Positions 32,414 to 38,001 of a stretch of 51,529 nucleotides of DNA are shown piece after piece. The notes under the pieces were generated by a model. It was not told the origin of the DNA. It did not search any database and saw nothing but the letters and a program-made list of their open reading frames with translations. Origin of the DNA: Bacillota bacterium. Lineage in GTDB: Bacteria > Sysuimicrobiota > Sysuimicrobiia > Sysuimicrobiales > Segetimicrobiaceae. The stretch's first letter is position 1, and every line of letters begins with the position of its first letter. Both the position numbers and the translations under genes were made by a program. The stretch is from contig JAJPJL010000076.1 in assembly GCA_021324255.1 (NCBI GenBank), forward strand, positions 1-51,529. The letters are read 5' to 3'.

Positions 32414-33634
32414 CTACGGGGGCGCGGTGCGCGGCCGCAGCACCTCGCGCAGCCGCCGCGCGACGACGGCTTCCTCGCCGGGGTGCAGCGTCGAGGCGAC
32501 CACGCCGATCGCCCGCTCCCGGAGGAACTGCTGCGAGACGCCGATGGCCGGCTCACCCTCCAGCAACTCGCTCACGATCGTCTCCGCCGGCCGCCCCAGC
32601 ACCGCCTCATCGAGGCGGACGACAAGAACCGGATAGCCGCGATGATCGTCCGCGTGCGGAGCGAAGCCGGCGCGCACCCCGGGCGTGTCGCCCAGCGCAT
32701 CCAGAATCGTCTCCAACTGCGCGCGCTGCCGTTCGCCCGCAGCCCGGTGATCGCTCGCGACAAAGCGCCGGAGCGCGACGAGGAGCCCCACGATCTCCTC
32801 CCGGCCCACCTTCATGCCCCGGCCGATCCCGTGATGCGGCGGCCCGGCCAGGACCCCGGTGGCGAGATACCGGTCCCGCCACGGCCACGTCTCCGGGTGC
32901 ACGTCCATGTCCTGATGCTGCAACGCCACGGACTCGATGAGATCACGCCGGCCCACGAGGATGCCGCTCGCCTGGGGGCCGCCGATGGCCTTGCCGCCGC
33001 TGAAGGCGACGAGGTCGGCGCCTTGGGCGACGAACCGCCGCAGGTTGTCCGCGGGCGGCAGGGCCGCGGCGGCATCGACGATCACGGGAAGCCCGTGACG
33101 GTGCGCGACACGGGCCACCTCCGGCAGCGGCACGCTGCCCGGCGCGTCGCACACGGCGTACGCGATCGCGGCCGTGCGCTGGGTGATCGCCGACTCGATC
33201 TGCCAAGGCCACGTCGCGCCCTGCCCGGGATATCCCAGGTACCCCACCTCGATGAGGCGGGCGCCGGCGACGCGCAGCGCGTGAGTGTACGCGGTCAGGT
33301 GCGGACGTTGAACGATGATCTCGTGCCGCAGGCCCGCCGCGTCGGGGAGACGGTCCATCGCCGCCACGTCGAGTCCGGCCATGCAGGCCGCGGCCGCGAG
33401 CGTCAGGCCGGCGGCCGCCCCGGCGGTCACGTAGCCGGCCTCGGCGCCGGTCACCTCGGCCAGATAGCGGCCCGCAGCTTCCTGCAGCTCGTCAATGCGG
33501 GCACACGTGCCCGCCGCCTCGGCCATCGCCGCGGCGACCTCCGGCGCAAGCGGCGCTCCCCCGAGGCGCGTGAGGGGCCCCGCGGCGTTGATGATCGGGC
33601 GAACGCCGAATCGCTCATAGATGCTGAAAGACAT
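32414..33634 (-). CDS. SelA-fold PLP enzyme (DgaE-type ammonia-lyase-like)
   Basis: 406 residues, fold-type I PLP enzyme of the SelA/selenocysteine-synthase-like group. It starts YERFGVRPIINAAGPLTRLG; the PLP lysine is in LVAFSGGKAIGGPQASGILV; PVIVDAAAALPP holds the Asp that pairs with the pyridine nitrogen. Family members near this length and start include D-glucosaminate-6-phosphate ammonia-lyase (DgaE) and related lyases, and it sits among amino-acid and sugar-acid genes. True SelA is longer and has an N-terminal tRNA-binding region that is missing here. It is divergent from the dipeptidase gene. Confidence 0.85.
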   Translation of the reverse strand: MSFSIYERFGVRPIINAAGPLTRLGGAPLAPEVAAAMAEAAGTCARIDELQEAAGRYLAEVTGAEAGYVTAGAAAGLTLAAAACMAGLDVAAMDRLPDAAGLRHEIIVQRPHLTAYTHALRVAGARLIEVGYLGYPGQGATWPWQIESAITQRTAAIAYAVCDAPGSVPLPEVARVAHRHGLPVIVDAAAALPPADNLRRFVAQGADLVAFSGGKAIGGPQASGILVGRRDLIESVALQHQDMDVHPETWPWRDRYLATGVLAGPPHHGIGRGMKVGREEIVGLLVALRRFVASDHRAAGERQRAQLETILDALGDTPGVRAGFAPHADDHRGYPVLVVRLDEAVLGRPAETIVSELLEGEPAIGVSQQFLRERAIGVVASTLHPGEEAVVARRLREVLRPRTAPP

Positions 33635-37225: not shown

Positions 37226-37840
37226 TCAGGCAGAATGGTCCAACCCGCCCGCGGGCGGTTGTGAGGCCGCGAGAAACGGCCCTTCGCGCGTGTGGACCGG
37301 GGCCGCGCAGAAATCGTTGGCGTCCACGCGCAGCGGCCGGTTCGACTTGGCGTTGTAGTTCTCGTGCGCGATGTGCGCCGTCAACTCGACGATCTCGCGC
37401 TCCGAAAACAACGCTTGCAGCCGCGCGAAGAACTCGTCCGGGACGTCGACGGGCGTGGCGCTCACGCGGTCCGCGTACTCCAGCGCGATCCGCTCCCGTT
37501 CGGACAGCGCGGCGGCGTCCCTGATCCCGAGCGCGGCCTCGATCTGCTCCTGCGACAGTCCGGCCTTGCCGCCCCCGGCGGCGTTGGCGTCCATTCAGAA
37601 CGGACACCCATTCCGCGCCGCCACCCGGATGCGGATCAGAAACGCGAGGGGCGCGCCGATCTCCCACCGTCCCGAGTTGAAGATCATGTTGGGCAGGAAC
37701 GAGGCCAGCATCGCGCGGCGGGAATGCGCGTACACCTTGATCGGGTTCAACGGCTTGCCAAGAAACACGCGGAACATGCCCTGAATGATTCCCGCGAGGA
37801 GGCCCGCCTCGCGCCCTTCAAGCGATCGGACCCGGGCCAT
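37226..37840 (-). CDS. Carboxymuconolactone-decarboxylase/AhpD-like protein with in-frame UGA (probable selenocysteine)
   Basis: 204 codons if the UGA at codon 82 (37597-37595) is read through. The helix before it reads LIRIRVAARNGCPF and the frame continues MDANAAGGGKAGLSQEQIEA, exactly where CMD-family proteins have CxxC (NGCPFC-MDxNxA). So the UGA replaces the second redox cysteine, giving Cys79-Pro-Phe-Sec82. The rest is an intact family fold: LSERERIALEYADRVSATPV, ELTAHIAHENYNAKSNRPLR. The alternative is a nonsense mutation or sequencing error, but no frame change is needed and a hairpin follows at selenocysteine-insertion distance. Members act as peroxidases or thiol oxidoreductases. 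Confidence 0.78.
37563..37588 (-). promoter_or_regulatory. Candidate bacterial SECIS hairpin
   Basis: Downstream of the UGA, GCCGCC pairs with GGCGGC around a GGG loop, and below an AAC/AA internal loop GCC pairs with GGC. The apical loop begins 18 bases after the UGA. This fits the published bacterial SECIS description (hairpin 16-37 bases after UGA, small loop with G in its first two positions). In GC-rich DNA such hairpins also occur by chance. Confidence 0.55.
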
Positions 37841-38001
37841 CGCGATCACCGTCCTTTCGGGGAGATTCGGTGAACCGATCGTCTGTGCCGCCGGTTCCGG
37901 GGAGGCCGGCACGCGCGCCGCTCGACCCGGGTGTCACCGCCAAGATGATGACGAAACACAGCGGGGTCATGTGACGGCACGAGCGGAGGGTGTGTGGTGC
38001 T

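Follow-up and report, generated by a model that had tools for sequence, protein, structure and literature searches.

A UGA codon at a redox position in an AhpD-like gene

The window, by which we mean the whole 51,529-nucleotide stretch of DNA that was analyzed, carries on its minus strand at positions 37226–37840 a gene for an AhpD-like protein of 204 aa, which we read as a selenoprotein. The frame (37840 to 37226, 204 codons) starts with the ATG at 37838–37840 (MARVRSLEGRE... / MARVRSLEGREAG...), ends with the TGA at 37226–37228 and contains a single in-frame TGA at 37595–37597 (minus strand), which is codon 82, in the context ...RVAARNGCPF-U-MDANAAGGG... and without a frame shift. Alignment to CMD/AhpD proteins places this codon in the column of the second cysteine of the CxxC motif; read as selenocysteine (Sec82), it would be the second redox residue of a C79-P-F-U82 motif. 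The first residue, Cys79 (TGT, 37604–37606, minus strand), is invariant across the 20 aligned proteins. Another cysteine near the C terminus, Cys178 (37307–37309, minus strand), is present in every aligned Sec relative except one (L038) as well as in the closest Cys homologues, and could be a third redox residue. The initial annotation of this DNA had the coordinates right and left the strand unstated; its claims that NGCPF-UGA-MDANAAGG is read without a frame shift and that the UGA stands for the second cysteine of CxxC agree with the intact minus-strand frame, from ATG to final TGA, and with the alignment. As it had also foreseen, gene calling with translation table 11 splits the gene into two ORFs, at 37595–37912 and 37226–37594 (both on the minus strand); gene calls at this locus come out wrong when Sec is left out of account.

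A scan of the whole window for codon-position GC bias showed that the TGA at 37595–37597 is the sole convincing one with gene-like bias on both sides, and its in-frame location is more than chance. The two other TGA candidates of the scan were rejected, one because its frame lacks a gene-like profile and one because it lies where one gene ends and another starts, and the scan found no second Sec gene in the window.

Conservation of the UGA and selection on its two sides

A search of 84,980 species genomes returned four orthologues of the protein (L021–L024), which were 67–91% identical to it and started at the position matching the ATG of the window gene. L021 belongs to a bin labelled Bacillota (isolate Centralia_MAG_233), lies on the same contig as G026 and shares its genus with the window's own genome, L022 belongs to a bin labelled Acidobacteria, and L023 and L024 belong to bins labelled Deltaproteobacteria, which are Myxococcota in the labels of the tree tool. 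Hence the TGA at codon 82 is present in five of five orthologues, counting the window gene, from bins with three phylum labels, and it is also present in 10 remoter relatives; other homologues have Cys (TGC) in this column. The dN/dS ratio against L021 was 0.10 for the codons preceding the UGA and 0.12 for those following it, while for the comparison of L023 with L024 it was 0.07 in either part, which shows that both halves are under purifying selection. The second half of the gene is thus translated in frame.

These data bear on a different explanation, in which an ordinary CMD protein with CxxC shows a TGA owing to a mistake in sequencing or assembly or to a recent nonsense mutation. This explanation could draw on the MAG-like character of the sequence and on decayed copies in related species. 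However, the same TGA occurs in the four orthologues from other assemblies and in the remoter relatives, selection is intact past it, and the 84,980 genomes yielded no orthologue with Cys at this codon, even with a Cys-bearing peptide pattern included in the search. A sequencing error is very unlikely because the separately assembled L021/G026 sequence, which is 91% identical, has the same TGA, and the explanation as a whole deserves next to no credence.

The decayed copies were found in two genomes. In the G025 copy (L027/L042, G025:C115), a deletion of about 150 bp removed the CPFU site together with the hairpin described below, and there is a frame shift in addition, while in G027 only a short 3′ remnant of the selenoprotein gene was found (L034, G027:C76). 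Both genomes have selB although the gene decayed, and the selenoprotein gene is therefore dispensable in some relatives. The family is also rare, because a search of 395 genomes of the phylum of L023, at an E-value of 1e-25, gave matches only in the two known carriers and in the distant L057 (IGCPFU).

Among the Cys forms, L032 and L040 read VCLFC, while L033, L041, and L043 read NGCAYC, and a homologue from Aeromonas caviae with 37% identity reads NWCRFC, with Cys in the Sec column. The placement of Cys versus Sec forms in the tree is limited by long branches. The A. caviae record NZ_AP026896.1 (L070) is listed as a plasmid with 18 annotated features only; its size of 4.9 Mb points to a misfiled chromosome.

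Selenocysteine machinery in the host and its relatives

The window's own genome (3.74 Mb in 142 contigs, 95% complete) contains on contig C83 the selA (440.9 bits), selB (321 bits), and tRNA-Sec (selC; 74.2 bits) genes in a row within about 5 kb, and the anticodon of the tRNA is TCA according to ARAGORN. The selD gene on contig C92 (383 bits) has an in-frame TGA of its own, reading CAGU, and the formate dehydrogenase gene fdhA on contig C84 reads NRTUHAPSV across a TGA, which is a canonical Sec site. The initial annotation had proposed a probable CMD/AhpD selenoprotein with a CxxU motif, had advised a genome search for selA, selB, selC, and selD and for other in-frame UGA genes, and had said that a lack of Sec machinery, or homologues of close relatives ending at the UGA, would speak against the proposal. 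All four genes are present, further in-frame UGA codons occur in SelD, FdhA, and a second AhpD-like protein, and among the intact close homologues none stops at the UGA; together with the conserved TGA and the selection on both sides, this bears the proposal out.

In the order as a whole, selB scored above its curated cut-off in 31 of 43 genomes, and in 11 of 12 from the window's own family; the matches below the cut-off elsewhere are probably ordinary EF-Tu. The L022 and L023 genomes have a tRNA-Sec above the cut-off, while none above the cut-off was found in that of L024, which may be incomplete. A SelA-like PLP-dependent protein encoded within the window (32414–33634, minus strand) matches PF03841 with 48.8 bits and also matches aminotransferase class V; it is not a genuine SelA, which is the one on contig C83.

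A reading of the UGA as Cys or Trp instead of Sec, by a change of code or by plain read-through, gained no supporting point. TGA is a normal stop in the window, where it ends 10 of the 24 credible genes, and it ends the selenoprotein gene itself, while the in-frame TGA takes the place of a redox Cys and the host has a full Sec system, all of which makes this reading most improbable.

A conserved hairpin downstream from the UGA

A putative bacterial SECIS hairpin, GCCGCC-GGG-GGCGGC, is located at 37568–37582 (minus strand). Its loop begins 18 nt after the UGA, and a stem of 6–7 bp with a loop starting with G is found in the same place in five of five orthologues; in L024 two of the pairs are turned into G-U. 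The hairpin is also present in L057, and it is not seen in the Cys forms, whose stems have 4–5 bp only. The hairpin of the host fdhA gene has a loop that starts with GG, likewise 18 nt after the UGA. In the bSECISearch model, the SECIS loop reportedly lies about 16–37 nt past the UGA and has a G at its start. The +18 nt loop fits this geometry in all five orthologues, and in a single sequence such a fit is not beyond chance.

When the synonymous codons of the window sequence were randomized, an equal stem appeared anywhere in the range in 17% of cases, and at the exact place in 7%. The single-sequence fold of the hairpin (z of −0.74) proves nothing, because comparable stems form in those 17% of randomizations. 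On the other hand, synonymous identity was 76% in the hairpin codons (26 of 34 comparisons) versus 46% elsewhere (424 of 928), and the chance of finding the hairpin in three lineages near synonymous saturation was about 3 in 10,000, as the product of the figures of about 7% with independence assumed. Hence, the window hairpin is weak when taken alone, and its weight comes from conservation. Covariation was dropped as proof of a SECIS element, since the stem is nearly invariant and the only changes are the wobble changes in L024.

Family membership and predicted structure

The joined frame matched the Pfam CMD model (PF02627) with 37 bits against a cut-off of 23, in keeping with the alignment to CMD/AhpD families that the initial annotation had called for, while the two halves taken separately fell below the cut-off. 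The AhpD core-domain model TIGR00778 was also matched (30.9 versus 27.8 bits). However, the scores for the strict AhpD model TIGR00777 (18.4 versus 191.95 bits) and for the peroxidase-related model TIGR01926 (32.5 versus 81.8 bits) were below their cut-offs. The protein thus belongs to the CMD/AhpD superfamily without being a strict-sense AhpD.

An AlphaFold model built from 20 relatives had a pLDDT of 75.4 and a pTM of 0.70, with most of the helical core above 85 and the last 30 residues unreliable. The model shows an all-helical AhpD fold, with C79-x-x-Sec82 where a helix begins, and it matches AhpD-like PDB structures with a probability of 1.00, the debrominase Bmp8 and the antioxidant Mlr4105 leading. 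The fold is shared with Atu0492 (2gmy), PA0269 (2ijc/7xw1), Mlr4105 (3c1l), Deinococcus radiodurans AhpD (6k40), and Bmp8 (6ohi/6ohj). In the printed alignments, which are those of 2gmy, 2ijc, 7xw1, and 6ohi, a CxxC is at the same position as the CxxU, for example NGCAFC in Atu0492. These structures differ from the window protein in having Cys at the Sec position wherever an alignment was printed, and the identity in the structural alignments is 19–29%. Mycobacterium tuberculosis AhpD (1gu9), a member of the CMD superfamily with a CxxC redox pair, is a poor structural match (E-value of 2.1), and the window protein scores below the cut-off of the AhpD-specific model.

The two ORFs of table 11, and the ATG that directly follows the UGA in five of five orthologues, could be taken to mean two separate genes, or a short gene that stops at the UGA and a second half that is translated from a start codon of its own. 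In the relatives, though, the methionine after the UGA is replaced by V, T, or I and is thus not a conserved start; moreover, the CMD core crosses the UGA, the helix bundle takes in both halves, and the Cys homologues are one protein. We consider this arrangement highly unlikely, and the gene is better read as a single frame across the UGA.

Comparison with known selenoproteins

Selenocysteine in AhpD-like proteins has long been described. The AhpD-like 1 and 2 selenoproteins (COG2128/PF02627, with CxxU) were reported in 2008 from the GOS survey of marine metagenomes (PMC2398784), and such AhpD-like and CMD-like CxxU selenoproteins are listed in reviews of 2022 (PMC9312934) and 2026 (PMC13188914). 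The initial annotation was therefore right that such proteins are known elsewhere and fair in calling this one a plausible new instance; a new kind it would not be. The window protein resembles AhpD-like 1 and 2 in its CMD/AhpD superfamily, in the Sec at the second CxxC position and in having known Cys homologues. It differs from the AhpD-like entry of the 2026 review (PMC13188914), whose given model is TIGR01926, in scoring below the cut-off of that model. The same model is matched with Sec by L038 of a related genome (G033:C30:11713-12177; 82.2 versus 81.8 bits), another AhpD-like selenoprotein, which reads NGCEYU and has the hairpin CCGCTTC-GGG-GAAGCGG following its UGA.

The best NCBIfam match was NF053654 (GroundWater_YciW, a YciW-related (seleno)protein), with 105 bits against a cut-off of 310. 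The match takes in the CxxU core and the C-terminal half; however, only residues 61–175 match and the score is far under the cut-off, so this is a sister subfamily of which the window protein is not a member. The orthologue L023 scored 92.7 bits. Similarly, GSU3128 (NF041047), a distant AhpD homologue, is a bacterial CxxU AhpD-like selenoprotein, but its family is short with a single core, and the window protein scored 15.1 bits against the curated cut-off of 110. The kind of protein is thus already known, while the subfamily falls below the cut-offs of all the NCBIfam selenoprotein models that it matches. The most fitting description is an AhpD-like CxxU selenoprotein subfamily that has no name yet, the comparison with the GOS AhpD-like 1 and 2 being by description only. 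The window gene adds this well-supported subfamily to the bacterial selenoproteome, and a curated model from the five orthologues would mend annotation in other genomes.

A paralogous subfamily with 33–41% identity reads NGCPFU too and has one copy in the host genome, on contig C46. This second AhpD-like selenoprotein (L036, G000 C46:91534-91998) has relatives in several other members of the host's family, and with an NF053654 score of 143.5 bits against the cut-off of 310 it represents another unnamed subfamily.

Proposed activity

The intact frame, the conserved UGA, the two-sided selection, the Sec machinery, and the fold were established computationally; Sec insertion itself is what we infer from the sequences, and we put the probability that the UGA is decoded as Sec in a protein of the CMD/AhpD superfamily at about 93%. 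SelB, Sec-tRNA(Sec), and the hairpin just past the UGA would decode codon 82 as selenocysteine, Sec82 would attack a peroxide or another reducible small molecule, and C79, possibly with C178 as well, would resolve the selenenyl intermediate. The protein is probably a thiol/selenol redox enzyme that uses C79-U82, while for a peroxide as the substrate the odds appear slightly short of even. C178 may be a further resolving residue, located in a region where the structure model is unreliable.

The proton relay of AhpD consists of Glu118, His132, and His137 around the CxxC (M. tuberculosis numbering). Counted without gaps from the second redox residue, these positions correspond to F67, F81, and N86 in the window protein, which by this simple offset makes canonical AhpD chemistry doubtful. 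The apparent lack of the AhpD relay residues could also favor a Sec protein acting on a non-peroxide, for example in reductive dehalogenation like that by the AhpD-fold debrominase Bmp8, which (6ohj) is the best structural match with a TM score of 0.70–0.76. However, the identity to Bmp8 is just 19%, and the antioxidant AhpD-like proteins 3c1l and 6k40 match about equally well, so we regard such an activity as unlikely. Equally speculative is the view of a distinct, unnamed subfamily, Sec-only so far and spread across three phyla, whose Sec82, C79, and conserved C-terminal C178 would make up a three-residue redox relay for a substrate that is not an alkyl hydroperoxide.

A gene neighbor common across the phyla was looked for and none was recognized; because the neighbors vary between genomes, the gene context gives no clue to function. 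The only neighbor common to the window locus and its close relative L021 is a convergent FUSC gene.
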